64,000 bases of DNA from Prolixibacter sp. NT017. GTDB taxonomy: Bacteria; Bacteroidota; Bacteroidia; Bacteroidales; Prolixibacteraceae. Made by a program: the position numbers and the translations under genes. Positions 25,857-40,167 of this stretch are shown in pieces. Position 1 is the stretch's first letter; every line of letters starts with the position of its first letter. The stretch spans positions 1,488,001 to 1,552,000 of the forward strand of contig NZ_BLAV01000001.1 of assembly GCF_009617875.1 (NCBI RefSeq), read 5' to 3'. The notes below the pieces were generated by a model. It saw nothing but the letters and a program-made list of their open reading frames with translations, was not told the DNA's origin and did no database searches.

Positions 25857-26278
25857 AAATAATAAAAGTTCGGTTTTTACTGAAAGAATTCTACTGCGAA
25901 GATGTTGTAATGCATTGGATTCGTTGCTTTAATATTCATGAAGAAAACCTAAAAAATGTTATGGTTTAGAATAAGTTCAGATAGAGAGGAATTCTTCTTG
26001 ATTTTACATCAGGAACATATAGATATAAGTGACTTTCGGAATGTTATTTTATCGGGATGCAATTATAAATAAAATGCGTGCGTGATAATCTTATTCGGGA
26101 TATATTATATGTTTTTCGACAATCTTGTGTATGCTGTTTAACATGGGGTTACCCCTGATAACTATCAGGATTTTCAGGAATTTAATTGGCTAACTTTTCA
26201 GTCGATTTTAGCACCCAAATTGACGGAAAGCAGCAGTAGGAGGGTACTGAATAATTAATTAGTCAATCATTAACCCAA
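25857..26278 (+). promoter_or_regulatory. Upstream region of the citDE-to-saccharopine cluster
   Basis: This 422-bp gene-free gap precedes the ten-gene cluster. It contains two adjacent inverted repeats, GGGGTTACCCC (26146-26156) and CCTGATAACTATCAGG (26154-26169), which share three bases. They are candidate operators about 110 bp before the first ATG. TAACTTTT at 26191-26198 is the closest match to the TAnnTTTG -7 box. No regulator gene lies next to it. Confidence 0.4.
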
Positions 26279-27487
26279 ATGCCCATGACTGCAACAGCCG
26301 GAAACCGTGGAGACAGCGTACGCTCGGACTGCTTTGTTCAGATGACCAAAACTGAACAACAGGCAACTGAAATCCGGTTACAAAGCAAAGTTGAAAGCCT
26401 GTATGGTGATTCCATCCGGGAGCTTTGTCACGAAGTATTGATTCACTACAATTTACGGAATGTGTTTGTCGAAATTGAAGACAAAGGAGCCTTGCCGTTT
26501 GTCACCGCAGCACGTCTTGAGTCAGCCATTCGCGAACTCACCGGAACGGAAGAATCTTTTTTATTACCAGTCGAAACAAGAAATCTTCACCGGACCCGCC
26601 GCGATCGAACCCGGAGAACCCGTTTGTACCTACCGGGAAATAATCCGAAACTCATGCTCAATGCCGGTATTTACGGAAGTGACGGTATCATTCTCGATTT
26701 GGAAGATTCGGTAGCTCCGGACAAAAAGGTCGAGGCCAGATTGTTGGTTCGTAATGCTTTACGAGCTGTTGATTTTGGTGATGCCGAAAGGATGGTTCGT
26801 ATCAATCAACTGCCTGCCGGGCTCGAAGATCTGGACTACATCATTCCCGAACAGGTAAACCTGATTTTGATCCCCAAGTGCGAAAATGCCCAACAGATTG
26901 TACAAGTCGAAGAGCGCATCGAAAAAATATTGGGACAGGAAAACACCGATATCTACCTGATGCCGATTATCGAAAGCACCTTGGGCGTAGTGAACGCCTA
27001 TGAGATTGCATCAGCTTCGCCGAATGTCGCTGTGTTGGCTATTGGTCTGGAAGATTATACAGCGGATCTGGGAGCTCAACGAACAGCTGAAGGAAGAGAG
27101 TCCTTTTATGCCCGCAGCGCAGTGGTGAATGCTGCCCGTGCTGCTGGTGTTCAGCCGATCGATTCGGTTTTCTCCGAAATTGATGATATGGAGGCGTTGC
27201 GCAATAACGTGCTCGAATCGAAAGCGCTAGGTTTTGCCGGGATGGGATGTATTCACCCACGTCAGGTTCCGGTTATCAACGAAGGTTTCAGCCCCGATGG
27301 ACAGGAAATTGAGAAGGCTAAACGCATTATGGAGGCTTTCGAACAAGCCAGGGAAAAAGGCCTGGGCGTTGTTGCCCTTGGTTCGAAAATGATTGATGCC
27401 CCTGTGGTGAAACGTGCTGTTCACACCATCGAACTGGCCATTCAATCGGGTAAACTGTCAACCAATTGGAGAGAAAATCATGAATGA
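26279..27487 (+). CDS. CitD-CitE fusion: citrate-lyase-type acyl carrier plus beta subunit
   Basis: This 402-residue protein joins two normally separate citrate lyase parts. Residues 1-100 resemble the acyl carrier protein CitD, including the S16-D17 pair (GDSVRSDCF) where the phosphoribosyl-dephospho-CoA group attaches. Residues about 108-402 are a CitE-type lyase with RLYLPGNNP, IILDLEDSVAPDKK, MVRIN, LIPKCENA and LAIGLEDYTADLG. The following citF start overlaps its stop by 8 bp. Citrate lyase splits citrate to acetate and oxaloacetate. In this neighbourhood homocitrate (giving acetate and 2-oxoglutarate) is a plausible substrate (inference). The maturation genes citC, citG and citX are not in the window. 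Confidence 0.85.
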   Translation: MPMTATAGNRGDSVRSDCFVQMTKTEQQATEIRLQSKVESLYGDSIRELCHEVLIHYNLRNVFVEIEDKGALPFVTAARLESAIRELTGTEESFLLPVETRNLHRTRRDRTRRTRLYLPGNNPKLMLNAGIYGSDGIILDLEDSVAPDKKVEARLLVRNALRAVDFGDAERMVRINQLPAGLEDLDYIIPEQVNLILIPKCENAQQIVQVEERIEKILGQENTDIYLMPIIESTLGVVNAYEIASASPNVAVLAIGLEDYTADLGAQRTAEGRESFYARSAVVNAARAAGVQPIDSVFSEIDDMEALRNNVLESKALGFAGMGCIHPRQVPVINEGFSPDGQEIEKAKRIMEAFEQAREKGLGVVALGSKMIDAPVVKRAVHTIELAIQSGKLSTNWRENHE

Positions 27488-29051
27488 AGATCTGATATAT
27501 AACGCAGTCGGACGGCTGGTTCCGTCTGAAATAAACGGAGAGCCGGTGGTTCCTTTTATGGGCGTGGGGAAATATCGTCCGGAAGGAAAAAAACATGCAT
27601 CTGTAATTCCGACGAATGCCGATTACCCAGCTGATGGAAATAAACAGGTTGCTTCGTTGAAAGAAGCGCTGCTGAAAGCCGGGCTCAAAGATGGTATGAC
27701 CATTTCGACGCATCACCACTTTCGTGACGGTGATTTGGTTGCCAACATGGTTTTTGATGTGGTGAAGGAGCTGGGCGTAAAAGATATTCGTTGGTATCCG
27801 TCAGCATCTTTTCCGTGCCATGCTCATTTGATTCCTTATCTGGAAGATGGTACTATCAGCCACATCGAAGGAAGCATGAACGGACCGTTGGGACGGTTCT
27901 GCTCGGAAGGTAAAATGAAAAAAACGGCTGTTCTGCGCTCGCATGGCGGACGCTACCAGGCGGTGCAGGACGGTGAAGTGAAAATCGATATTGCCGTGAT
28001 TGGTGCAGCTTGTGCTGATCCGTTTGGTAATGCCAATGGCTTGAATGGACCATCAGCGAGTGGTTTGCTGGGGTTTGCTTTAGCCGATTCGCAGTATGCT
28101 GATAAAGTTATCGTGGTAACTGATAACATGGTGCCATTTCCCTGTGTGCCGTGGCAAATTCAGGGAAACTATGCGGATTATACTGTTGAAGTGGAGAAAA
28201 TCGGTATTCCGGAGAAGATTGTTTCCGGAACAACGCAGATTACCAAAAGCCCAGACAGACTGCTGATTGCGGAGGTGACGGCTAAATTCTGTGAAGCAAC
28301 CGGCATCATTCGCGATGGATTTTCGTTTCAGGCAGGAGCCGGAGGAACCGCCCTTTCCATCGGGATTTACTTTGGTGAAATCATGCGCCGGAAAGGTATT
28401 AAAGCGCGGTTTGCCCGTGGTGGGAGCAACAAATACCTGGTGGAGATGCTGGAAGAAGGGTTGGTGGAGTACATACTCGACGGACAGACGTTTGATTTGG
28501 AAGGTGTTCGTTCCATGCGCGATAATCCTAATCATACCTGGACCAGTCCATTTACCAGTTACAACTACCACAGCAAAGGAAACTTTGCCGGTCTGGTGGA
28601 TGTGGTGATTTTAGGTGCTACCGAAGTGGATGTGAATTTCAATGCTAATGTGGTAACACACTCCGACGGGAGGTTATTACACGGACTTGGGGGATGGCAA
28701 AATTGCCTCTTCTCCAAAACGGTCATTTTACCGGTGCCGCTTTTCCGTGACCGCATTCCGGTGATTGTGGATGAAGTAACCACGCTTTGTGGACCGGGTG
28801 AACTTATCGATGTTATTGTGACTGAAAGGGGCATAGCTATTAATCCTTTGCGGAAGGATTTAATCGAAAAAGCGAAAGATTCCGGTCTTCCTATTCGAAC
28901 CATTGAAGAGTTGAAGGAGGAAGCGGAACGGATTTGCGGAAAACCGAAAAAACCTGTGTTCACAGATAAGATTATCGCCGCCATCAAGTGGGTGGACGGA
29001 ACTGTGATTGACGTGGTGCGGCAGGTCGAAGAAAAGAAAACAGAAAATTGA
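27480..29051 (+). CDS. citF: Citrate lyase alpha subunit-like CoA transferase
   Basis: This 523-residue protein starts at ATG 27480 (MNEDLIYNAVGRLVP), overlapping the citDE stop. It matches CitF, the acyl-carrier/CoA transferase subunit, throughout: GAACADPFGNANGL, FQAGAGGTALSIGIYF, VTHSDGRLLHGLGGWQN and DEVTTLCGPGELIDVIVTERG. It exchanges acetyl for the (homo)citryl group on the CitD thiol. The family is clear; whether the substrate is citrate or homocitrate cannot be decided from sequence. Confidence 0.92.
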   Translation: MNEDLIYNAVGRLVPSEINGEPVVPFMGVGKYRPEGKKHASVIPTNADYPADGNKQVASLKEALLKAGLKDGMTISTHHHFRDGDLVANMVFDVVKELGVKDIRWYPSASFPCHAHLIPYLEDGTISHIEGSMNGPLGRFCSEGKMKKTAVLRSHGGRYQAVQDGEVKIDIAVIGAACADPFGNANGLNGPSASGLLGFALADSQYADKVIVVTDNMVPFPCVPWQIQGNYADYTVEVEKIGIPEKIVSGTTQITKSPDRLLIAEVTAKFCEATGIIRDGFSFQAGAGGTALSIGIYFGEIMRRKGIKARFARGGSNKYLVEMLEEGLVEYILDGQTFDLEGVRSMRDNPNHTWTSPFTSYNYHSKGNFAGLVDVVILGATEVDVNFNANVVTHSDGRLLHGLGGWQNCLFSKTVILPVPLFRDRIPVIVDEVTTLCGPGELIDVIVTERGIAINPLRKDLIEKAKDSGLPIRTIEELKEEAERICGKPKKPVFTDKIIAAIKWVDGTVIDVVRQVEEKKTEN

Positions 29052-29143
29052 ACCAATATTAGCGACCAAGCCGATTTAAAAACAAACGAGCGCAACGCCT
29101 CTGAGTGCCAAAAATCAGTGGCGTGCTAAAAAATCAATTGACT

Positions 29144-30334
29144 ATGGCAAAAAGAACCATCGTAGCGATGCCGGGCGACGGCATTGGAAAGACAGTCCTT
29201 CCCGAAGCCATCAGGGTACTGGAAGCAGCCGGATTTGAAGCCGATTACGTAGAAGGTGACATTGGCTGGGAGTTTTGGTGTAAAGAGGGAAATCCGCTGC
29301 CAGAGCGTACTATCAAACTTCTGGAAGAGCACAAAGTGGGATTGTTTGGAGCGATTACTTCGAAACCGAAGGAAGAAGCACTTAACGAACTTTCGCCCGA
29401 GTTGAGGGAAAAAGGCCTGGTGTATTCAAGCCCGATTGTTGGTCTGCGTCAGCATTTCAATCTCGATATCTGCATGCGTCCGTGCCATACTTATAAGGGA
29501 AATCCGCTCAACTTCATTCGTCGCGGAAAGGAAAACAGCGTCGAAGAACCTGAAGTGGATGTGGTTATTTTCCGTCAAAATACAGAAGGCCTCTACGGAG
29601 GTGTGGAGTGGAGTGATCCGGACGACAAAGTTTATGATGCATTGATGACGCATCCCAAGTTTGTGAAGAACTTCGGTTCGGTTCCCCGGAATGAGCTATC
29701 GGTTTCGACCCGAATCTTTACGAAAAAAGCGACTGAACGCATTCTTCGCGCCGCCTTTGTTCATGCTGCGAAATATGGTTACAAGTCGGTAACGCTTTGT
29801 GAGAAGCCTAATGTGATTCGTGAAACTTCGGGAATGATGTACAAAATGGCGAAAGAGATTCAGCAGGAATATTCCGATATCGCTCTTTGGAATACCAATA
29901 TCGATGCTCAGATGATGTGGTTGACCAAGAATCCGGAAGATTACGGAGTGATTGTAGCCGGAAACATGTTCGGTGATATTGTCTCCGACGGTTTTGCCGG
30001 ATTGATTGGTGGTTTGGGATTTGCCTGCAGCGCCAACATGGGCGACGAAGTGGCTGTATTCGAGCCGACGCATGGTTCCGCACCGAAGTATGCCGATTAC
30101 GATGTGTCGATTGTCAATCCGATTGCCATGATTGAATCAGCCTGCATGATGTTGGATCATCTCGGTGAAAATGACAAGGCCATCAAAATCCGGAAAGCTA
30201 TCGCGGAAGTGGTAGCCGAGGGCAAAGTCCGCACATACGATATGATGAAGATGTCGGGACGGCCCGATGTAGTTGAAAAAGGTGCCGCTTCGACGCAACA
30301 GATGGCCGATGCTATCATTGAAAAATTGAAGTGA
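29144..30334 (+). CDS. Isocitrate/homoisocitrate-type decarboxylating dehydrogenase
   Basis: This 396-residue member of the beta-decarboxylating dehydrogenase family (isocitrate, isopropylmalate, homoisocitrate) has GDGIGKTVLPEA, LRQHFNLDICMRP, FRQNTEGLYGGVEW, and GNMFGDIVSDGFAG. Aligned by eye with E. coli Icd (RSLNVALRQELDLYICLRP), the isocitrate-binding serine is kept (S96) but the asparagine two places on is isoleucine (I98). That would weaken binding of isocitrate's gamma-carboxylate and hints at another substrate. In this cluster homoisocitrate is the natural guess, running toward carboxylation of 2-oxoadipate (inference). Its stop overlaps the next start (ATGA). Confidence 0.85.
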   Translation: MAKRTIVAMPGDGIGKTVLPEAIRVLEAAGFEADYVEGDIGWEFWCKEGNPLPERTIKLLEEHKVGLFGAITSKPKEEALNELSPELREKGLVYSSPIVGLRQHFNLDICMRPCHTYKGNPLNFIRRGKENSVEEPEVDVVIFRQNTEGLYGGVEWSDPDDKVYDALMTHPKFVKNFGSVPRNELSVSTRIFTKKATERILRAAFVHAAKYGYKSVTLCEKPNVIRETSGMMYKMAKEIQQEYSDIALWNTNIDAQMMWLTKNPEDYGVIVAGNMFGDIVSDGFAGLIGGLGFACSANMGDEVAVFEPTHGSAPKYADYDVSIVNPIAMIESACMMLDHLGENDKAIKIRKAIAEVVAEGKVRTYDMMKMSGRPDVVEKGAASTQQMADAIIEKLK

Positions 30335-30894
30335 TGAGCAATCTGGAACAAGTATACGATCTTTGGCCGGAGCTGCTCTGGATTAAAGATGAGGAACTCC
30401 GCGACGAGACCGCAGAAACATGGCGTTGGGCATTGGAAAGAAGCATGCTAACACCCGAAGATTTGCACCGGATTCCGTTCACGCTTCTTTGTGGACCGGA
30501 TCTGAAAGTCAGTTTCATGGACCACAAACGGGCGGTAGTTCACATTGCCCGCGAAAGTGGCATGAAGATGAACGAGTTCTTCAAGAGTGAGCTACCGGTC
30601 AACATGGATGTCCTGATCTCTGGCGCTATCCTGGCTGATGTGGGCAAGCTTCTGGAATACGAGCTGGATGAAAACGGGAATTCCTTTCAGGGAAAATATG
30701 GCAAACTGTTGAGACATCCGTTTTCGGGTGTTTCGCTGGCTGAATCCTGTGGTGTTCCACCGGAAGTCTGCCATATCATTGCGGCACATGCGGGTGAAGG
30801 TGATATGGTGAAACGCACTACAGAGGCGTACATTGTACATCATGCTGATTTTATGACCTTTCTTCCTTTTAAGGCAATGAGCAATGAAAAATGA
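30334..30894 (+). CDS. HD-domain protein with altered metal site
   Basis: This 186-residue protein starts at ATG 30334 inside the stop of the preceding dehydrogenase. The HD-phosphohydrolase fold is suggested by DHKRAVVHIAR, LISGAILADVGKLLEYE, RHPFSGVSLA, CHIIAAHAGEG and HHADFM. The HD dipeptide itself is AD in ADVGK, so one metal ligand is lost and activity may be reduced or regulatory. The last residues (MSNEK) come from the low-complexity flank of the downstream S23 cassette, so the original C terminus may have been different. Its role in the cluster is unknown. Confidence 0.7.
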   Translation: MSNLEQVYDLWPELLWIKDEELRDETAETWRWALERSMLTPEDLHRIPFTLLCGPDLKVSFMDHKRAVVHIARESGMKMNEFFKSELPVNMDVLISGAILADVGKLLEYELDENGNSFQGKYGKLLRHPFSGVSLAESCGVPPEVCHIIAAHAGEGDMVKRTTEAYIVHHADFMTFLPFKAMSNEK

Positions 30895-31304
30895 ACAGTG
30901 AAAAATCAAAATGAATAATGGACAATGAAGGAAAATCAGGTCGTCGATAAATCGTTTGCCTTCGCACTTAAAATTGTGGAGTTGTCCCGGTATCTGATGA
31001 AGGAAAAGAACGAGTACATTCTTTCCAAACAGGTTTTAAGATCGGGAACATCCATTGGTGCCAATATTGAGGAGGCTCAAGGCGGATTTTCGAAGAAAGA
31101 TTTTTCTGCTAAGATGGGAATTGCTTACAAAGAAGCTCGTGAAACAAAATATTGGTTGCGACTTCTGCATCAATCGGGATACATTGATGAAGCAAAGCTG
31201 AATTCTTTGTTGCCCGGTTGCGAGGAACTTCTAAAGATGCTGTATTACATCGTAAAAAATTCCAAAGCAAAATGAAAGCTCTATCCAATTGTTCATTTCT
31301 CATT
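30883..31304. repeat. Imperfect inverted repeats flanking the S23 gene
   Basis: Left arm AATGAAAAATGAACAGTG (30883-30900) and right arm 31286-31304 (reverse complement AATGAGAAATGAACAATTG) border the S23 gene. Both lie in wider ATGAACAATGA-like low-complexity sequence. The arms differ at three or four places. Such flanks around S23-type genes suggest that the gene arrived as a cassette. Confidence 0.5.
30925..31275 (+). CDS. Four-helix-bundle protein of the S23/IVP family
   Basis: This 116-residue all-helical protein has the family core SKQVLRSGTSIGANIEEAQGG, followed by KEARETKYWLRLLHQSGYI. Relatives are encoded in 23S rRNA intervening sequences or as stand-alone chromosomal genes; their function is unknown, and their shape suggests oligomeric RNA- or protein-binding bundles. 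Here it interrupts an otherwise metabolic operon in the same direction and is bordered by inverted low-complexity repeats. Confidence 0.85.
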   Translation: MKENQVVDKSFAFALKIVELSRYLMKEKNEYILSKQVLRSGTSIGANIEEAQGGFSKKDFSAKMGIAYKEARETKYWLRLLHQSGYIDEAKLNSLLPGCEELLKMLYYIVKNSKAK

Positions 31305-31321
31305 TTTAATTTCTAATTGAA

Positions 31322-33133
31322 ATGATGACCATCATTGAGAAAATAATTGCTAATCATTCCGGAAAAGAGTCGGTGAAACCCGGTGAAATTGTCGATATCA
31401 GTATCGATGTTCGTCTGGCCCGCGATTTTGGAGGAGCAAACGTGGTGAAGAATCTGGTGGATAACCAGCTGGTCATAGAGAACAGCGATAAAACTTTCTT
31501 CACCTTCGACTGTAATCCAACTGGCTCGGATCAGAAATATGCTGCCAATCAGCAAAAGTGCCGGCTTTTTGCCCGCGATTTCAATATCCGGGTGTACGAC
31601 ATTAATTCCGGTATTGGAACCCATCTGGCTATTGACAAAGGTTTGGCTGTTCCTGGCTCAACGGTGGTTTCTACCGATTCGCATGCCAATATTCTGGGGG
31701 CTATTGGTGCTTTCGGACAGGGAATGGGCGATCGCGATATCGCCGCTGCCTGGGCACGCGGTGCCGTTTGGTTCAAGGTTCCGGAGTCGGTAAAAATTAC
31801 CCTTATTGGAAAACGTCCGGCAGGTATTTATGCCAAAGATATTGTCCTGAATTTACTGAAGCATTTCGGTGCCAGTAGTTTGTTGGGCAAATCGGTAGAG
31901 CTTTACGGCGAAGAAGTTGAAAAACTTACCCTGGATGAACGCATCACCATCTCTTCCATGGGGACGGAAATGGGAGCTATTGCGGTCTTCTTCCCGCCAT
32001 CGGATGAGGTAATTCAATATGCAAAAGAGCGCTCCGGTGAAGATTTCGAGCCGGTATTTGCTGATGGAGATGCAAATTACGCGGAAACTTTCGAACTGGA
32101 TATGGCAACCTTCATTCCGGCTATTTCCCTTCCGGGAAAACCACACGATGTGGTTCCGGTGGAGCAGGTAAAAGGCACCAAAATCGATTCATCGTTCATT
32201 GGTAGTTGTACGAACGGGCGCATGGAAGACATGCGTGCGGCAGCCCGGATTCTGAAAGGCCGGAAAGTAGCTCCCGGAGTGGTCCTGAAAATCGTTCCTT
32301 CTACAGATGAGGTGTGGAATGCCTGCATGGAAGAAGGTTTGATTCGTATTTTCAAAGATGCCGGCGCTATGCTAAGCAATGCCGGATGTGCCGGATGTGC
32401 TGCGGGTCAGGTGGGACAAAACGGACCTGGCGAGAAAACCGTTAGTACCGGAAACAGGAACTTTGCCGGTAAGCAGGGCAAAGGCGACGTCTATCTGGCT
32501 TCGCCGGCTACGGCTGCAGCTTCTGCGGTAGCAGGTCATATTACCACTGAAGATGATTTGCCGGAACGACCTTCACTATTCGAGGAAGGACATGGCAAGC
32601 AGGAAGCTGTGCTGGTAACACATCATGATAATGAAAAAGAAAAGCCGTCAGTAATTGAAGGAAGGGTTTGGTTGATCATCGAAGACAACATCGATACCGA
32701 CATGATTTTCCATAACCAGCATTTGGCGATTACTGAATTGTCGGAAATGGGGAAATACACCTTTGGCAACCTGAAAGGCTGGGAAGATTTTGCCACCAAA
32801 GCGAAACCGGGTGATATCGTCATCACCGGGAAAAACTTTGGTGCAGGAAGTTCTCGTCAACAAGCAGTCGATTGTTTCAAGTCGTTGGGCGTGCAGGCTG
32901 TTTTGGCTGAATCGTTCGGAGCTATTTACGAGCGAAATGCCATCAATGCCGGTTTCCCGATTATGACTTATGAGTCGGTTGAAGAGCTGGATCTGCAGAA
33001 TGGTAATGTGATTACTGTTGAATTTGAAACCGGTAAGATAACCAACAGGGAAAACGGTAAAAACGTTATGGTTCAGCCATTCTCTGATGTTCAAATGGAA
33101 ATCTACCGAAAGGGAGATTTGCTTCATGTATAA
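31322..33133 (+). CDS. Fused aconitase-family hydro-lyase, paralogue A
   Basis: This 603-residue protein joins the large (LeuC-like, residues 1-430) and small (LeuD-like, about 445-603) parts of the aconitase/isopropylmalate/homoaconitase family. Iron-sulfur cysteines are in IGSCTNGR and AGCAGCAAG; STDSHANILGAIGAFGQGMG is the nucleotide-free active-site region. The small-domain loop is NIDTDMIFHNQHL and the active-site serine segment is GAGSSRQQA, both different from paralogue B. It is shorter than TCA-cycle aconitases of Bacteroidota (about 750 residues). It may take homoisocitrate/homoaconitate, or (iso)citrate; sequence alone cannot decide. Confidence 0.85.
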   Translation: MMTIIEKIIANHSGKESVKPGEIVDISIDVRLARDFGGANVVKNLVDNQLVIENSDKTFFTFDCNPTGSDQKYAANQQKCRLFARDFNIRVYDINSGIGTHLAIDKGLAVPGSTVVSTDSHANILGAIGAFGQGMGDRDIAAAWARGAVWFKVPESVKITLIGKRPAGIYAKDIVLNLLKHFGASSLLGKSVELYGEEVEKLTLDERITISSMGTEMGAIAVFFPPSDEVIQYAKERSGEDFEPVFADGDANYAETFELDMATFIPAISLPGKPHDVVPVEQVKGTKIDSSFIGSCTNGRMEDMRAAARILKGRKVAPGVVLKIVPSTDEVWNACMEEGLIRIFKDAGAMLSNAGCAGCAAGQVGQNGPGEKTVSTGNRNFAGKQGKGDVYLASPATAAASAVAGHITTEDDLPERPSLFEEGHGKQEAVLVTHHDNEKEKPSVIEGRVWLIIEDNIDTDMIFHNQHLAITELSEMGKYTFGNLKGWEDFATKAKPGDIVITGKNFGAGSSRQQAVDCFKSLGVQAVLAESFGAIYERNAINAGFPIMTYESVEELDLQNGNVITVEFETGKITNRENGKNVMVQPFSDVQMEIYRKGDLLHV

Positions 33134-33150
33134 CGTTAAAAATTTGGCGT

Positions 33151-34938
33151 ATGTCAGGAAAAACGTTTGCTGAAAAGATTTTGGGTGCTCCGGTTGGAAG
33201 CATTGTGTTTGCCAAACCGGATATCATCCTGTCGCACGATAATTCATCGAGTATCGAAAAGATATTCCGCAAGATGGGCGGCGACCGGGTTGCCGATCCC
33301 AATAAATTACTGCTGGTGCTCGATCACAACGCACCACCTACTAACGCCAAGCTGGCGAACGACTATCAGCAAATTCGCGATTTCGCAAAAGATCAACACG
33401 TATCAAGTTTTCACGATGCGGGGCAGGGGATATGCCACCAGTTGATGGCTGGTCATGCACGGCCGGGAATGTTGGTCGTTGGTAGCGATAGTCATACCTG
33501 CACAGCAGGAGCTTTCAACGCTTTTGCAGCTGGTATCGACCGGACCGAAACAGCCGGGTTATGGAAACAGGGTGAAACCTGGTTTCGCGTTCCTGAAACC
33601 ATCAAAATTACCCTGACGGGGAAATTGCCGGAGCATGTGTATGCGAAGGATTTGGCTTTGTATATCATCGGCATGATTGGTTCTTCAGGGGCTGATTACA
33701 TGTCCATAGAGTACCATGGCGAAGGTGTGAAAACACTCACGGTTGCCGACCGGATGACCATTGCGAACCTGGCCTCGGAAATGGGGGCCAAGAACGCTGT
33801 TTTCCCGGCAGATGAAAGGCTGGAAGAATATTTCGGAGCCAAATTCAAAGCCATTTGGGCCGATGATGATGCTGTGTATGCGAAAGAGTACACCATCAAT
33901 CTGTCGGAATTGTATCCGGTAACGGCTTGTCCGCACCATGTTGACAACGTAAAGAGCGTGGATGAAGTAGCCGGAACGCCGGTTGCTCAGGCTTTAATCG
34001 GAACGTGTACCAACGGTCGTATCGAAGACTTGCGGGCAGCGGCAGCGGTTCTAAAAGGGCATAAAATACCGGAAGGATTCCAGTTGCTGATAACTCCGGC
34101 TTCGCGTGAAATATACCTACAGGCCATGAAGGAAGGTTTGGTAGAAATCTTCCTGGAAGCAGGTGGAAATGTTCTTTCACCTTCGTGTGGTCCATGTTTG
34201 GGAACAGGGCAGGGAATTCCGGCTGATGGCATCAATGTAATTTCAACGGCTAACCGCAACTTTCTGGGAAGGATGGGTAACAAGAATGCTTCTATCTACC
34301 TGGCATCGCCGGCAACGGTGGCCGCTTCCGCTTTGCGTGGTGAAATTACTTCGCCCGAAAGGGCAACCTCTGCGCACAAGTTTCCGTATCACAAGCAGCA
34401 GACGGCAACCGTGGTAATAGATCCCGGAGATAATCGTCGGCAGAGTGGTGTGTGGAACTACGCGGATGTGGATAACCTGAATACCGACCAGATGTTTGCC
34501 GGCAGTTTGACGTACGAGGTTAACAGTTCGGAACCGGAGAAGATTGTCCCACATTTATTTAAAGGCTTTGATGATCGCTTTGCTGAAAATGTGAAGCTGG
34601 GCGATATCATTGTGTGTGGTGAAAACGTTGGTTGCGGAAGCTCGCGCGAACATCCTTCGGTTGGTTTGGTTAAAGCCGGTGTACGTGCCGTTATCGTGAA
34701 ATCGGTTTCCCGGATTTTCTTCCGCTCGGCCATCAACCAGGGGCTTCCCATTATTGTGTTACCCGAAGCTGTCAATGCTTTCCATAAAGGAGAAAGTGTG
34801 GAAGTTGATATGGCTTCCGGCGTGATTTATATCGGAACGAAAATATTCCATTTCAATCCGCTGCCCGAAAAGCTGATGCAGATTCTGGGAAAGGGCGGTC
34901 TGGTGAACTGGATCCGCGAAAGCGAAACAACCATTTAA
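33151..34938 (+). CDS. Fused aconitase-family hydro-lyase, paralogue B
   Basis: This 595-residue protein has the same fused layout as the preceding gene, 17 bp after its stop. It has GSDSHTCTAGAFNAFAAGID, cysteines in IGTCTNGR and SPSCGPCLG, the small-domain loop NLNTDQMFAGSLTYEV and the serine segment GCGSSREHPSVG, which is closer to classical LeuD/homoaconitase. Two different dehydratases side by side would fit the two half-reactions (homocitrate to homoaconitate and homoaconitate to homoisocitrate), which in fungi are done by separate enzymes. This is an inference. Confidence 0.87.
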   Translation: MSGKTFAEKILGAPVGSIVFAKPDIILSHDNSSSIEKIFRKMGGDRVADPNKLLLVLDHNAPPTNAKLANDYQQIRDFAKDQHVSSFHDAGQGICHQLMAGHARPGMLVVGSDSHTCTAGAFNAFAAGIDRTETAGLWKQGETWFRVPETIKITLTGKLPEHVYAKDLALYIIGMIGSSGADYMSIEYHGEGVKTLTVADRMTIANLASEMGAKNAVFPADERLEEYFGAKFKAIWADDDAVYAKEYTINLSELYPVTACPHHVDNVKSVDEVAGTPVAQALIGTCTNGRIEDLRAAAAVLKGHKIPEGFQLLITPASREIYLQAMKEGLVEIFLEAGGNVLSPSCGPCLGTGQGIPADGINVISTANRNFLGRMGNKNASIYLASPATVAASALRGEITSPERATSAHKFPYHKQQTATVVIDPGDNRRQSGVWNYADVDNLNTDQMFAGSLTYEVNSSEPEKIVPHLFKGFDDRFAENVKLGDIIVCGENVGCGSSREHPSVGLVKAGVRAVIVKSVSRIFFRSAINQGLPIIVLPEAVNAFHKGESVEVDMASGVIYIGTKIFHFNPLPEKLMQILGKGGLVNWIRESETTI

Positions 34939-34977
34939 ATGAACTGAGAATATATAACAACATAAAACGTAGATAGT

Positions 34978-36516
34978 ATGCAAGAAATGAAGGATGTACT
35001 GAAAATATTAGGCATCAAAGATGTGAATCCGGGGTTGTGTACCGGTACGAAATGGATTGATACTACCGGTGATAAACTTACGTCGTATTCGCCGGCAGAT
35101 GGAAAAGCTATTGCCGAAATTAAACAAGCAACACTGGAAGATTATCGGAAAGTGATCGATACGGCAAAGGACGCGTTCAAGGTATGGAAGAAGGTACCCG
35201 CCCCGAAACGTGGAGAGATAGTTCGTCAGATTGGTTTGGAACTGCGCAAATACAAAGAACCACTGGGTCGTTTGGTTTCCTATGAGATGGGGAAAATTTA
35301 CCAGGAAGGTCTGGGCGAAGTTCAGGAGATGATTGATATCTGTGATTTCGCGGTTGGCCAGTCACGTCAGTTGTATGGCTTCACCATGCACTCGGAGCGT
35401 GCTGAGCACCGTATGTACGACCAGTATCATTCGTTGGGCATTGTTGGCGTGGTTTCAGCATTTAACTTCCCGGTAGCAGTTTGGGCATGGAATGCTATGA
35501 TTGCTCTGGCAGCCGGTGATGTGATCGTTTGGAAACCATCGTCGAAAGTTTTGCTTTGTGCGGTTGCCGTTCACAACATTGTGGCCGATGTACTGAATCG
35601 TAACGATATCCCGGAAGGTGTACTGAACCTAGTGGCTACCAGCTCGAAATACCTGGGTGATGACATGTTCAGCGATAAGAACATCCCGCTGATCTCCTTT
35701 ACCGGTTCTACCCGCGTAGGTAAGAAAGTGGGCCGTTTGGTCGGTGAGCGTTTGGGCAAATCCATTCTCGAATTGGGCGGTAATAACGCCGTGATTGTAA
35801 CACCGACTTCCAGCCAGGAAATGGCGCTTCGGGCCATCGTGTTCGGTGCTGTCGGAACAACAGGACAGCGCTGTACATCTACCCGTCGCGTTATTCTTCA
35901 TCAAAGTATTTACGAAGAGTTTAAGCAAAAACTCATTAATGTATATAAGGGCTTGAAGATTGGTAATCCGCTGGACGAAAAGAGCCATGTGGGACCGCTG
36001 ATTGACAAAGGAGCTTCGGATACTTATTTCAAAGCTATTGAGAAGGTGAAAGCCGAAGGTGGCAAAATCCTCTTTGGTGGTGAAGTTTATAAGGACGCCA
36101 GTTGCGAATCGGGATGCTACGTGGTGCCTTGCGTTGCCGAAGTGGAAAACCATTATGAAATCGTTCAGGAAGAAACGTTCGCTCCGCTGCTTTACGTGAT
36201 TAAATATAGTACGCTGGATGAGGCCATCGAACTGCACAACGCCGTTCCGCAAGGTCTGTCATCTGCGATGTTTTCAACCAACCTGCTGGAAACTGAAAGG
36301 TTCTTGTCGCACGAAGGTTCCGATTGCGGAATTGCCAATATTAACATTGGTACTTCCGGCGCTGAAATTGGTGGTGCTTTTGGTGGGGAAAAGGATACCG
36401 GTGGCGGCCGGGAATCAGGATCTGACGCTTGGAAAGCTTATATGCGCAGACAAACCAATACCATCAACTATGGTTCGGAATTACCGTTGGCTCAGGGAAT
36501 CGAGTTCAACGTGTAG
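34978..36516 (+). CDS. Alpha-aminoadipate semialdehyde dehydrogenase (ALDH7, antiquitin type)
   Basis: This 512-residue aldehyde dehydrogenase has catalytic C299 in GQRCTSTRR and general base E265 in LELGGNNAV. The C-terminal stretch TSGAEIGGAFGGEKDTGGG, then ESGSDAWKAYMRR and LPLAQGIEF, is characteristic of ALDH7A1 (antiquitin). Antiquitin oxidises alpha-aminoadipate semialdehyde (or its cyclic form piperideine-6-carboxylate) to alpha-aminoadipate in lysine breakdown. Lysine-ketoglutarate reductase and saccharopine dehydrogenase genes follow, which makes this assignment strong. Confidence 0.93.
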   Translation: MQEMKDVLKILGIKDVNPGLCTGTKWIDTTGDKLTSYSPADGKAIAEIKQATLEDYRKVIDTAKDAFKVWKKVPAPKRGEIVRQIGLELRKYKEPLGRLVSYEMGKIYQEGLGEVQEMIDICDFAVGQSRQLYGFTMHSERAEHRMYDQYHSLGIVGVVSAFNFPVAVWAWNAMIALAAGDVIVWKPSSKVLLCAVAVHNIVADVLNRNDIPEGVLNLVATSSKYLGDDMFSDKNIPLISFTGSTRVGKKVGRLVGERLGKSILELGGNNAVIVTPTSSQEMALRAIVFGAVGTTGQRCTSTRRVILHQSIYEEFKQKLINVYKGLKIGNPLDEKSHVGPLIDKGASDTYFKAIEKVKAEGGKILFGGEVYKDASCESGCYVVPCVAEVENHYEIVQEETFAPLLYVIKYSTLDEAIELHNAVPQGLSSAMFSTNLLETERFLSHEGSDCGIANINIGTSGAEIGGAFGGEKDTGGGRESGSDAWKAYMRRQTNTINYGSELPLAQGIEFNV

Positions 36517-36559
36517 CATTTTGACAGGTTCATACATTTGACAAGCTCGTTGGTGTCGC

Positions 36560-36622
36560 AACCGGACGGCAGGCAGAAAGTACGATGAATGGTTCAGTTA
36601 ACTTTCTGTACTGCCTCCGGTT
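36560..36622 (+). terminator. Long hairpin between the ALDH7 and lysine reductase genes
   Basis: Arms 36560-36581 and 36601-36622 (outer AACCGG with CCGGTT, inner CAGAAAGT with ACTTTCTG) pair with a few internal mismatches and are followed by TT and TTGC. It lies 43 bp past the ALDH7 stop in a 266-bp gap. It may end the first transcript, leaving the two saccharopine genes with their own promoter, or act as an attenuator. Confidence 0.55.
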
Positions 36623-36782
36623 TTGCAAACGTGTGTAGTTGTATCGAAAGTTGCTTTTTATATGATAAGCAACGCATATTTTCTTATCTTGATGGGGATT
36701 TCCCAAAAATCTATTGTTAGAGCCTGTTTATATCACCCAATTCCGGTTCAAACTTTTTATTAACTGAATAAAATTTCTGCGA

Positions 36783-37988
36783 ATGAAGCTAGGTATCCTG
36801 AAAGAAGGTAAAGTACCGCCCGATCGGCGTGTGCCTTTTTCGCCCGAACAGTGTCTCGAAATCGCCCAACGTTTTCCGCAAGTGGAACTGACAGTTCAAT
36901 CCAGTCCCATCCGTTGTTTTCCGGATAAAGACTATTTGGACGCTGGCATTTCCATGAACAACGATTTGAGTGATTGCGATATCCTGATGGGAGTGAAAGA
37001 GGTACCGATCCCCGATTTGATGGAGGATAAAACGTATCTGTTCTTTTCTCACACCATCAAAAAGCAACCGTACAACAAAAAACTTCTTCAGGAAATCCTG
37101 CGAAAGCGAATTCGTTTGATAGATTATGAAGTATTAACCGAGCCGAATGGAATGCGTGTGATTGGTTTTGGCCGGTTTGCCGGGCTGGTTGGTAGTTACA
37201 AAGGTTTGCGTGCGCTAACCATCCGTCATGAGTTGCCTGAACCGAAGCCTGCTTATGAGTGCCACGATTTGGCTGAGATGAAATCCGAAGCCCGAAGATT
37301 GGAACTTCCTCCGTTGAAAATAGCAGTGACCGGTGGTGGACGAGTTACCCATGGCGTTATGGAGATGCTGGACGAGATGAAGATTCGGAAAGTGAGTATT
37401 GAAGAATATCTCGCTACAGACCACGTCGATGAGCCGGTGTATGTGCAGCTCGAGCCGGATGCTTACAACAAACGCAAAGATGGCAGCGCTTTTGATTTTG
37501 GACATTTTGTGAAAAATCCACAGGAATACGAAGGTAATTTTCTTCGGTTTGCCAAAACTACCGATTTGCTCATTTCAGCGGCTTACTGGGACCCGAATGC
37601 TCCGGTTTTATTTACCCCGGAAGATATGCGCAGTCCGGATTTCCGCATCAGGGTGATATCCGATATTACCTGCGATATCAAAGGTTCTATTCCTTCTACG
37701 TTGCGAGCTACTACCATCGATGAGCCGTTTTACGGATACAATCCGGTAACGGAACAGGAAGAAGTTGCTTTTACCAATCCGAAAAACATTACCGTCATGT
37801 CGGTGGATAATTTGCCTACCGAACTGCCTCGCGATGCTTCTGTCGATTTTGGCGAAAACCTCATCAACCGTGTGTTGCCGTCTTTACTGGGCGATGATTC
37901 CGAAGGTATTGTCCAACGGGCTACCATTACCGAAAACGGTAAGCTAACGGAGCGGTATAAATACCTGGAAGATTGGGTAAACTCATGA
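36783..37988 (+). CDS. Lysine-ketoglutarate reductase (saccharopine dehydrogenase, lysine side)
   Basis: This 401-residue enzyme of the alanine dehydrogenase/LYS1 fold has ILKEGKVPPDRRVPFSP at the N terminus, the NAD(P)-binding stretch KIAVTGGGRVTHGVMEML, and the signatures ISDITCDIKGSIP and VDNLPTELPRDASVDFG, which match the LKR half of animal AASS. It joins lysine and 2-oxoglutarate to saccharopine (reversible). The next gene is the glutamate-forming saccharopine dehydrogenase, so the two together equal AASS. Confidence 0.9.
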   Translation: MKLGILKEGKVPPDRRVPFSPEQCLEIAQRFPQVELTVQSSPIRCFPDKDYLDAGISMNNDLSDCDILMGVKEVPIPDLMEDKTYLFFSHTIKKQPYNKKLLQEILRKRIRLIDYEVLTEPNGMRVIGFGRFAGLVGSYKGLRALTIRHELPEPKPAYECHDLAEMKSEARRLELPPLKIAVTGGGRVTHGVMEMLDEMKIRKVSIEEYLATDHVDEPVYVQLEPDAYNKRKDGSAFDFGHFVKNPQEYEGNFLRFAKTTDLLISAAYWDPNAPVLFTPEDMRSPDFRIRVISDITCDIKGSIPSTLRATTIDEPFYGYNPVTEQEEVAFTNPKNITVMSVDNLPTELPRDASVDFGENLINRVLPSLLGDDSEGIVQRATITENGKLTERYKYLEDWVNS

Positions 37989-38168
37989 ATTGAAAAAGTG
38001 TGTGATAGTGTGAAGACGAGTGTGTGAGATGGGGGAGATTAGGAGAAGATGAGAAAGGGTGAAAGGGAGAGTGGGAGAATTCCATTCCACGTAAAGGCTG
38101 TGGTCTGAAATCTTTATTCTAATGTCTGGAGTCTAAAATCTTGATTCTAATATCTATTGTCTTTTAGT
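37989..38168 (+). repeat. Purine-rich low-complexity spacer
   Basis: The 180 bp between the two saccharopine genes begin with a purine-rich, GTGTGTGAGA/GAGAAAGGGTGAAAGG-type stretch (about 37998-38080), followed by repeats of the TCTAATGTCTGGAGTCTAAA kind (about 38105-38160). Both are simple-sequence spacers often seen in Bacteroidota. No promoter or gene is evident. Confidence 0.55.
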
Positions 38169-39497
38169 ATGAAAAAAATATTCATCATCGGCGCCGGGCG
38201 TTCCTCTGCTACGCTAATCCGGTATCTGGAAGAACAGGCATCTACCTTTGGCTGGGAAATCACGGTAGGTGATCAGGATATTAACCTGGTGAAGGAAAAA
38301 ATAACGCCGCCCACCCGAGCTCTTGTCTTCGACGTGTTCGATGAGCAGCAGCGAAACCTGGAAATTGAGCAGGCCGATATTGTGGTATCGATGTTGCCGG
38401 CCCGGTTGCACCAGGTGGTGGCGCTGGCTTGTCTCAAATTTGGTAAGTCGTTGCTAACGGCTTCTTATGTATCCGACGAATTAAACGGCCTGGATGCAGA
38501 AGTAAAGGCGAAAGGCTTACTCTTTCTGAACGAAATGGGTGTTGACCCGGGTATCGATCATATGTCGGCCATGAGGCTGATAGATCGTGTAAAGCAAGAA
38601 GGTCACGCTATTACCGATTTCGAGTCATTTACCGGAGGACTGGTAGCACCTGAATCGGACAACAATCCGTGGAATTACAAATTCACCTGGAATCCCCGCA
38701 ATGTAGTGGTTGCCGGGCAGGGCGGACCCGCCAAATTTCTTCAGGAAGGAAAATACAAGTACATCCCGTACAATCGTCTTTTCCGGCGCACCGAAGTAAT
38801 CGATATCGAGGGATTTGGAAAGTTCGAGGGGTATGCTAACCGCGATTCGTTGAAGTACATCGACAAGTACAACCTGCAGGGAGTTCCTACCGTTTACCGG
38901 GGAACGTTACGGCGACCGGGATACTGCCGGGCGTGGGACATTTTCGTACAGCTGGGCGCCACGGACGACACGTACTTCATGGAGAATACCGGGAACATGA
39001 CCTACAAGGAGTTCATCAACTCGTTTCTCTATTATGCCGAAGCATCGGTGCGGTTGAAACTGTATCACTACATGCACATCGATCAGGATTCGGACATTAT
39101 CGATAAGCTGGAATTTCTGGAGCTATTCAGTGATAAAAAGATTGGCCTGAAAAGAGCTACTCCTGCGCAGATTCTGGAACATATCCTTTCGGAGAAATGG
39201 AAGATGGAGCCCGAGGATAAAGACATGGTGGTGATGTGGCACAAGCTACTTTACAATCGAAAAGGTGATGCACACCCGGTGAAGATGACTTCTTCGATGG
39301 TTGTTTTGGGCGAGGATTGTGTGCATACAGCGATGTCAAAGACGGTGGGATTGCCGTTAGCCATTGCCACTAAGATGGTCATGACCGGACAAATAGCTTT
39401 GACTGGTGTGCATATTCCCAATCGGAAGGAGATTTACGAGCCAGTGCTGAATGAACTGGAGAATTACGGTATCACTTTCGTGGAAAAGGAAGAATAA
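38169..39497 (+). CDS. Saccharopine dehydrogenase, glutamate-forming (LYS9 type)
   Basis: This 442-residue enzyme starts at ATG 38169 (a TTG lies 12 bp upstream). The Rossmann start is KKIFIIGAGRSSATLI; family signatures are LLTASYVSDE, NEMGVDPGIDHMSAM and FTGGLVAPESDNNPWNYKFTWNP, as in LYS9 and the SDH half of AASS. It splits saccharopine to glutamate and alpha-aminoadipate semialdehyde, the substrate of the ALDH7 enzyme. It is the last gene of the cluster; a hairpin follows at 39516. Confidence 0.93.
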   Translation: MKKIFIIGAGRSSATLIRYLEEQASTFGWEITVGDQDINLVKEKITPPTRALVFDVFDEQQRNLEIEQADIVVSMLPARLHQVVALACLKFGKSLLTASYVSDELNGLDAEVKAKGLLFLNEMGVDPGIDHMSAMRLIDRVKQEGHAITDFESFTGGLVAPESDNNPWNYKFTWNPRNVVVAGQGGPAKFLQEGKYKYIPYNRLFRRTEVIDIEGFGKFEGYANRDSLKYIDKYNLQGVPTVYRGTLRRPGYCRAWDIFVQLGATDDTYFMENTGNMTYKEFINSFLYYAEASVRLKLYHYMHIDQDSDIIDKLEFLELFSDKKIGLKRATPAQILEHILSEKWKMEPEDKDMVVMWHKLLYNRKGDAHPVKMTSSMVVLGEDCVHTAMSKTVGLPLAIATKMVMTGQIALTGVHIPNRKEIYEPVLNELENYGITFVEKEE

Positions 39498-39515
39498 CAG
39501 AGTTTTGGCATAAAG

Positions 39516-39573
39516 AAAGCTCAGATTCTGATTGCTTACGTTGAATGAAACGAGCAGTCAAAGTCTGAGCTTT
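39516..39573. terminator. Terminator at the end of the lysine cluster
   Basis: Arms AAAGCTCAGA (39516-39525) and TCTGAGCTTT (39564-39573) form a perfect 10-bp stem with a 38-nt loop that may itself fold. TATTTTTT follows. It can also serve the convergent gene ending at 39586. Confidence 0.7.
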
Positions 39574-39585
39574 TATTTTTTCGGA

Positions 39586-40167
39586 TTATTCGTCAACCGA
39601 CCAACTCCAAACAATGCGTGCATCACCGGTGGAGAAGTTGTTCATACGGTCGAGTTCCGTTTGTGTTTCAAACTCCTCATCGAACTCTTCGTCCATCGAC
39701 ACAAAACCGAAGTCGCGGTCTTTAATGCTTCGCAGAATGCCACCGATTAATGGCAATGCTTCTTTTGAAATCACCAGCCAGGGAAGTGCTCCGGCACCCA
39801 ACATATCGCCGACAATATCGAAGGCGTGCTTGCCTAGCTGGCCCTTTACCTGTTGGAGCATCTCACCGGCACTACGTGTATGCTTCCGGCAATGGCGAAG
39901 ATAAACCCGTACTTTAATGCGACGATCTTCGGGCATATCCCTTTCAAGAATAAATAAACCATCAGCGCCGTCATCGGTTGCTTCCGGAACAAAGTTCAAC
40001 ACGTTTTTTTGACGAGGAGTAAGCCGGATGTATGGTTCAGGCGTGGTCGTGAGCACCATCTTGTCGTTGTCTTCTGGATGTTCAGCTACGATAACGAAAT
40101 AGAGTTGCCATCTTTCTTTGGGGCGAAGAATAGTGAGTTTTTCGAATTCCAATTTGATTTTAGCCAT
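39586..40167 (-). CDS. Hypothetical protein
   Basis: This 193-residue protein starts at ATG 40167 (MAKIKLEFEKLTI); the frame extends 8 residues further. The first ~110 residues look like a beta-rich C2-like or immunoglobulin-like domain (WQLYFVIVAEHPEDNDKMVL, LRLTPRQK-like segments), followed by a Gly/Ala-rich hydrophobic stretch (DIVGDMLGAGALPWLVISKE) and a very acidic segment. There is no signal peptide. I do not recognise the family. Confidence 0.6.
   Translation of the reverse strand: MAKIKLEFEKLTILRPKERWQLYFVIVAEHPEDNDKMVLTTTPEPYIRLTPRQKNVLNFVPEATDDGADGLFILERDMPEDRRIKVRVYLRHCRKHTRSAGEMLQQVKGQLGKHAFDIVGDMLGAGALPWLVISKEALPLIGGILRSIKDRDFGFVSMDEEFDEEFETQTELDRMNNFSTGDARIVWSWSVDE

Follow-up and report, generated by a model that had tools for sequence, protein, structure and literature searches.

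Why should genes for the breakdown of lysine stand in one row with genes resembling those for citrate lyase, homoisocitrate dehydrogenase and homoaconitase? The question is raised by a locus in Prolixibacter sp. NT017 (genome of 5.14 Mb, single contig, NZ_BLAV01000001.1), which occupies positions 26279 to 39497 of the window, the 64,000-nucleotide stretch analysed here (contig positions 1,488,001 to 1,552,000). Judged from its sequence and those of its relatives, the cluster probably encodes a lysine catabolic pathway that ends in the cleavage of homocitrate, and the best-supported reading of its second half is a route from 2-oxoadipate through homoisocitrate, homoaconitate and homocitrate to acetate and 2-oxoglutarate.

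A lysine gene cluster with a putative homocitrate lyase

The original prediction was that ten co-directional genes serve this pathway. All ten were found, on the + strand, but only nine of them form the system and the tenth is an insert. Their window positions are as follows.

26279..27487, + strand: CitD-CitE fusion (citDE; Pfam ACP and HpcH_HpaI), proposed acyl-carrier domain and beta (lyase) subunit of a homocitrate lyase
27480..29051, + strand: CitF (TIGR01584), proposed alpha subunit (CoA/ACP transferase) of the homocitrate lyase
29144..30334 (open frame from 29105), + strand: Iso_dh-family dehydrogenase (AksF models highest), proposed reductive carboxylase of 2-oxoadipate
30331..30894, + strand: HD-domain protein (PF01966/HDIG)
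30925..31275, + strand: 23S_rRNA_IVP protein (PF05635, 108 bits), insertion outside the pathway
31322..33133, + strand: Acn1, fused large and small subunits of the aconitase/HacA family (hacA_fam 389.5 bits, cut-off 385.7), proposed dehydratase
33151..34938, + strand: Acn2, second fused HacA-family enzyme (hacA_fam 488 bits, cut-off 385.7), proposed dehydratase
34978..36516, + strand: ALDH7, L-piperidine-6-carboxylate / aminoadipate semialdehyde dehydrogenase (NF050084)
36783..37988, + strand: LKR, lysine-2-oxoglutarate reductase (PDB match to human AASS)
38157..39497, + strand: SDH, saccharopine dehydrogenase, glutamate-forming (PDB match to human AASS)

The same order of the nine genes (citDE-citF-dehydrogenase-HD-Acn1-Acn2-ALDH7-LKR-SDH) was found in eight named loci (L031, L032, L033, L039, L045, L050, L055 and L061), a recurrence in other genomes that excludes chance as the source of the grouping; several of these stretches end inside SDH, with 22% of the gene left in L050 and 50% in L033. 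CitF of the window shares 99% identity with the Prolixibacter denitrificans protein and 97% with that of P. bellariivorans. The frame at 30925-31275 was considered as a further pathway gene and rejected on its family membership. In the P. denitrificans locus L031, Acn1 directly follows the HD gene with no counterpart between them, and for this reason the frame was treated as an insertion. An Rfam scan of positions 26000-40000 gave no matches.

In the proposed pathway LKR, SDH and ALDH7 would, by family, convert lysine and 2-oxoglutarate to glutamate and 2-aminoadipate, from which an aminotransferase would give 2-oxoadipate. The dehydrogenase may then carboxylate and reduce 2-oxoadipate to homoisocitrate, probably with NADPH to judge by its motifs, Acn1 and Acn2 would carry homoisocitrate via homoaconitate to homocitrate, and CitDE/CitF, acting as a homocitrate lyase, would release acetate and 2-oxoglutarate. 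The predicted sum, lysine + 2-oxoglutarate + CO2 + H2O to 2 glutamate + acetate, balances as had been claimed (C12 = C12, N2 = N2), with as many NAD(P)H formed as consumed (two each), and would be redox-neutral if NADH and NADPH exchange. The route would need no O2 and pass through no glutaryl-CoA. It would suit anaerobes, since an exit from 2-oxoadipate that uses O2, such as the known enzyme HglS, is no option for them.

From lysine to 2-aminoadipate

As a family assignment, the predicted role of LKR, SDH and ALDH7 as the ordinary segment from lysine to 2-aminoadipate is firm, and this part of the original prediction was borne out. The best PDB match of LKR was the reductase half of human AASS (162 bits) and that of SDH the dehydrogenase half of the same protein (221 bits), followed by saccharopine reductase (193 bits). 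ALDH7 scored 790 bits with NF050084, over the NCBIfam cut-off of 730 for L-piperidine-6-carboxylate dehydrogenase, and its relatives in the PDB include antiquitin and alpha-aminoadipic semialdehyde dehydrogenase. The set thus resembles the human saccharopine pathway (AASS and ALDH7A1), in which the same activities take lysine to 2-aminoadipate; in mammals, however, 2-oxoadipate is oxidised to glutaryl-CoA (by OADHc, the 2-oxoadipate dehydrogenase complex), whereas carboxylation and cleavage are proposed here.

The dehydrogenase and the HD-domain protein

The Iso_dh protein scored under the cut-off of all 16 models that it matched, with two methanogen AksF homoisocitrate-dehydrogenase models highest (269 bits on AksF2, cut-off 540). 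One of its loops reads SSPIVGLR, compared with SSPIVALR in the homoisocitrate dehydrogenase of S. pombe (3ty3) and SLNLTLRK in the NAD-isocitrate dehydrogenase of yeast. Both the SPI[VI] motif and HGSAPKY were present in all 63 dehydrogenase sequences, the window's among them, and the K-Y pair of the latter marks the use of NADP in E. coli isocitrate dehydrogenase. A short-peptide search of the PDB with the loop returned only unrelated or weak matches. The whole protein matched a putative NAD-isocitrate dehydrogenase best (194 bits) and the homoisocitrate dehydrogenase of T. thermophilus second (180 bits); for its relative in L125 (49% identical) the T. thermophilus enzyme was the best match in the PDB, at 252 bits, the best isocitrate dehydrogenase scoring 246.

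Homologues of the HD protein were found in 45 loci, near the dehydrogenase in most but not in L107, L228 and L233. Its motifs DVGK, RHPFSG and HHADF are well kept, being present in most homologues, and its best match among solved structures, at E 0.11, is not a close one. In two loci the dehydrogenase-HD pair is adjoined by a citrate-transporter-family protein (CitMHS with TrkA_C; L075:16396-18171 and L087:16858-18684), which could be a carrier of a pathway acid.

Two dehydratases per cluster

In many Bacteroidota loci the order is dehydrogenase-HD-dehydratase-c5-CitDE-CitF. The syntenic dehydratase of L127, the one such gene tested, scored 872.7 bits with the homoaconitase model TIGR00139 (cut-off 529.9), and c5 of the same locus is an MmgE/PrpD-family dehydratase. 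Close relatives of the L127 dehydratase, where named, are called homoaconitase or homoaconitate hydratase, and many come from Melioribacteraceae and Ignavibacteriales. Acn1 (243 bits) and Acn2 (334 bits) of the window were both under the TIGR00139 cut-off. Two dehydratases were present in 37 of the 40 loci having the dehydrogenase and any dehydratase: a LYS4-type enzyme with PrpD in 25, Acn1 with Acn2 in 11 and Acn2 with PrpD in one (L103). The single-dehydratase exceptions were L094 and L110, each of which lies at the end of a contig, and the uncut L115. In the families other than that of the window, the LYS4-type homoaconitase and the PrpD-family enzyme would together isomerise homoisocitrate to homocitrate. 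According to PMC3556520, fungal homoaconitases interconvert only homoaconitate and homoisocitrate, and aconitases turn homocitrate into homoaconitate. A second enzyme would therefore be needed, which fits the presence of two dehydratases per cluster.

How the two window enzymes would divide this work is suggested differently by different features. The loop of Acn2 (QMFAGSLTYE) resembles that of LYS4-type homoaconitase (GIYPGKYTY), the corresponding loop of Acn1 being MIFHNQHLAI; this and the pairing of Acn2 with PrpD in L103 favour the PrpD role for Acn1 and the LYS4 role for Acn2. The opposite mapping is favoured by gene position, since Acn1 and the LYS4-type gene each follow HD.

The lyase, and homocitrate or citrate as its substrate

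CitF scored 528 bits with TIGR01584, over the citrate-lyase cut-off of 501. The CitE domain (280 bits with NCBIfam citE, cut-off 443) and the CitD domain (51 bits with citD, cut-off 63.5) fell below theirs and are still recognisable; the CitE scores of relatives (290 bits in L127, 284 bits in L031) were also under the cut-off. The carrier serine of CitDE, Ser16 in the rSDC motif, is kept in at least 95% of 100 CitDE sequences, and CitG (PF01874) had no match in the NT017 genome under a search that matched the E. coli control. Taken together, these two results suggest that some other route loads or modifies the carrier, or that CoA itself is used. The enzyme shares with the ATP-independent citrate lyase (CitDEF) the CitD carrier domain, the CitE lyase, the CitF transferase and the conserved serine. 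It differs from it in the fusion of CitD to CitE, in the scores of both domains and in the lack of a CitG match, and the proposed substrate is homocitrate instead of citrate.

A tandem pair of CitF copies lies beside a single CitDE in L060 and L104. Subunits of Na+-pumping decarboxylases (mmdA-like, OadG, biotin carrier and OadB) often adjoin CitDE-CitF or the dehydrogenase, as at L064:4164-8070, L117, L125 and other loci. For such subunits beside CitDE-CitF in several Bacteroidales loci, citrate fermentation with oxaloacetate decarboxylase was considered; it was not adopted, since the carboxyltransferase of L064 is mmdA-like (817 bits, under the cut-off of 998.8) and matched no oxaloacetate decarboxylase alpha model.

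The CitF score raises the possibility that the module acts on citrate itself. 2-Oxoglutarate would then be carboxylated to isocitrate, the aconitases would form citrate, and a citrate lyase would cleave it to acetate and oxaloacetate, giving an ATP-independent segment of the reductive tricarboxylic acid cycle to which the lysine genes would merely supply glutamate. The best PDB match of the dehydrogenase and the citrate-transporter-family genes at L075 and L087 fit this explanation, as does the lack of ATP-citrate lyase in Melioribacter roseus described in PMC3534657. We nevertheless consider it unlikely. The NT017 genome already has a separate NADP-isocitrate dehydrogenase (732 bits, cut-off 335) and a separate mitochondrial-type aconitase (1165 bits, cut-off 825), the SPI[VI] motif is invariant in the dehydrogenases, an enzyme over the homoaconitase equivalog cut-off occupies the same gene slot in L127, CitE and CitD score below the citrate-lyase cut-offs, and ALDH7 is enriched in genomes with CitF (see below). 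Homocitrate chemistry is preferred here over plain citrate chemistry because of the motif, the syntenic homoaconitase, the paired dehydratases and the presence elsewhere in the genome of isocitrate dehydrogenase, aconitase and LeuB. LeuB and LeuA both scored over their cut-offs; the genome also has another aconitase-family frame, of 930 amino acids, and one in the leu region that was taken as LeuC by position.

Breakdown or synthesis

The compounds of the proposed route (homocitrate, homoaconitate, homoisocitrate and 2-oxoadipate) and the homoaconitase and homoisocitrate dehydrogenase families are shared with the alpha-aminoadipate pathway of lysine synthesis in fungi and Thermus, as is the need for two dehydratases (PMC3556520). 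The differences are that the direction is proposed to be reversed, that a lyase replaces the synthase, and that the NT017 genome lacks a homocitrate synthase over cut-off. The last point, noted earlier for the locus, holds genome-wide: TIGR02146 gave three matches, none over its cut-off, and by score the two strong ones are LeuA and a citramalate-synthase-like protein. The genome does contain diaminopimelate epimerase. These two results, and the likeness of LKR, SDH and ALDH7 to the human degradation set, argue for breakdown.

A synthetic role was weighed against this: acetate and 2-oxoglutarate would be built up to 2-aminoadipate or lysine, and either the lyase would act in the condensing direction or a homocitrate synthase would be encoded elsewhere. 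Lysine synthesis is known to involve homoaconitase and homoisocitrate dehydrogenase (PMC3556520), and the search for homocitrate synthase covered the NT017 genome and not its SDH-lacking relatives. The same search, the epimerase and the closeness of the three lysine enzymes to the human degradation enzymes and their relatives all speak against synthesis. Reactions of the citrate-lyase type favour cleavage at cellular concentrations, which also weighs against it, and we regard a biosynthetic role as very improbable.

If the catabolic route through homocitrate is correct, lysine breakdown would here end in neither glutaryl-CoA, cadaverine nor 2-hydroxyglutarate, and the segment of lysine synthesis between homocitrate and 2-oxoadipate would be reversed to serve as a CO2-fixing catabolic step. 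It would also add homocitrate lyase, an activity that none of the open-access papers searched was found to mention. The original prediction had named no described pathway with this ending, and none was found either, in a search whose coverage excluded most subscription papers and preprints, so that priority is not proven. The main text of the Melioribacter roseus paper (PMC3534657) contains neither 'lysine' nor 'homoaconit', and nothing on this route stands in passages of PMC8542988, PMC5317091 and PMC5460018. For genes of Ignavibacteria, Marinilabiliales and Cloacimonadota that now bear the name homoaconitase or citrate lyase, the reading would supply testable functions.

Distribution and linkage of the two halves

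A scan of species genomes for CitF loci (the best 80 of a larger number) and a sample of 395 genomes of the phylum, NT017 included, were used to follow the genes beyond the window. CitF was present in 38 of the sampled genomes and absent from 357; the co-occurrence counts and Fisher tests below ignore kinship among genomes. The dehydrogenase lay inside the CitF stretch in 28 of the 38, NT017 among them. Nine of the other ten were searched genome-wide (G294 was left out), and eight had a dehydrogenase elsewhere at 70-74% identity, G243 being without one; in G070 and G353 it is on the CitF contig, 17-20 kb away. Similarly, 14 of 18 named CitF-bearing genomes with no dehydrogenase in the stretch have one elsewhere (72-85% identity; the copy in G403 contains internal stops), and the genome-wide search found none in G409, G411, G412 and G425. 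Among 34 control genomes without CitF the dehydrogenase was found in one at 68% (G310) and in two more at 51-52%. A non-adjacent dehydrogenase thus occurred in 22/27 genomes with CitF compared with 1/34 controls (Fisher p 7e-11). ALDH7 was present in 32/38 genomes with CitF and 165/357 without (Fisher p 5e-6), and SDH, at a threshold of E<=1e-30, in 17/38 and 74/357 (p 0.002). ALDH7 was retained in 15 of the 21 SDH-lacking genomes with CitF, which makes another entry from lysine possible, for example by a 6-aminotransferase or 6-dehydrogenase.

The linkage of lyase and lysine genes, on which the original prediction depended, was confirmed in part. Beyond the eight loci of conserved order, SDH-LKR-CitDE-CitF was found in Cloacimonadota (L094, L101 and L107; LKR-CitDE-CitF in L105, which is cut), where identity to the window proteins is 31-33% for LKR and 36-39% for SDH; such strong divergence suggests that linkage to the lyase may have arisen more than once. 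In G116 some 4 kb separate CitF from an ALDH7-SDH-LKR group on the opposite strand, and in four more stretches of relatives with CitF, LKR and SDH stand together, three of the four with ALDH7 alongside. On the other hand, CitF and SDH share one fetched stretch in only two (NT017 and G116) of the 17 phylum genomes that have both.

This last count, and the lack of SDH in the 21 genomes, would be expected if two separate modules had become neighbours by chance in Marinilabiliales, one taking lysine to aminoadipate and the other, unrelated to it, being a tricarboxylic-acid lyase pathway that acts on a different C6 or C7 compound. The recurrence of the linkage in Cloacimonadota, with diverged LKR and SDH, and in G116, the retention of ALDH7 where SDH is lacking and the exact meeting of the two segments at 2-oxoadipate are difficult to reconcile with this, and the explanation appears improbable, a little more so than the action of the module on citrate.

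The proposed route from lysine to homocitrate cleavage is therefore partly supported, by the conserved order, by the linkage in Cloacimonadota, by the replacement of the Acn pair by homoaconitase and PrpD and by the excess of ALDH7 and of the dehydrogenase in genomes with CitF, and partly not, with SDH in fewer than half of the genomes with CitF. Besides the CitF score, the missing CitG, the isocitrate dehydrogenase match and the rarity of shared stretches already described, the following points weigh against it. The dehydrogenase reaches none of the curated cut-offs, and no gene was assigned to the aminoadipate aminotransferase step. Reductive carboxylation runs energetically uphill and would depend on the pull of the lyase. 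Acn1 has an alanine at the place of what we take to be the arginine of the YLRT motif of homoaconitase small subunits. L115 carries one dehydratase without being cut, and in L217, L224 and L229 the dehydrogenase or HD gene stands with Acn1 alone. Among 117 CitF stretches, 34 had CitDE and CitF only and 14 had CitF only, and these bare stretches include short contigs, yet also stretches of 20 kb. G188 is one of the SDH-lacking genomes, with the module genes present. Finally, ALDH7 was not found in 6 of the 38 phylum genomes, and among named genomes with CitF it was present in 25 of 35, many of the ten without it being metagenome-assembled genomes. With these points included, we lean slightly towards a widespread, O2-independent, CO2-fixing and redox-neutral breakdown of lysine in Bacteroidota, Cloacimonadota and relatives, with a true homocitrate lyase, CitG-free carrier maturation and interchangeable dehydratase sets (two HacA-type enzymes, or LYS4 with PrpD).

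The bacterial HglS route, which leads via 2-oxoadipate to 2-hydroxyglutarate, likewise starts from aminoadipate and 2-oxoadipate. HglS was found in none of the 38 genomes with CitF, which fits the proposed route, and in 3 of the 36 examined (of 74) that have SDH and no CitF, a difference that does not separate the groups statistically (p 0.11). In two of these three genomes HglS adjoins ALDH7. In 11 of 18 fetched stretches (L179-L181, L184, L188-L193 and L195) the immediate neighbour of ALDH7 is a second aldehyde dehydrogenase, 541-558 amino acids long, 24-28% identical to ALDH7 itself and perhaps a 1-pyrroline-5-carboxylate dehydrogenase.

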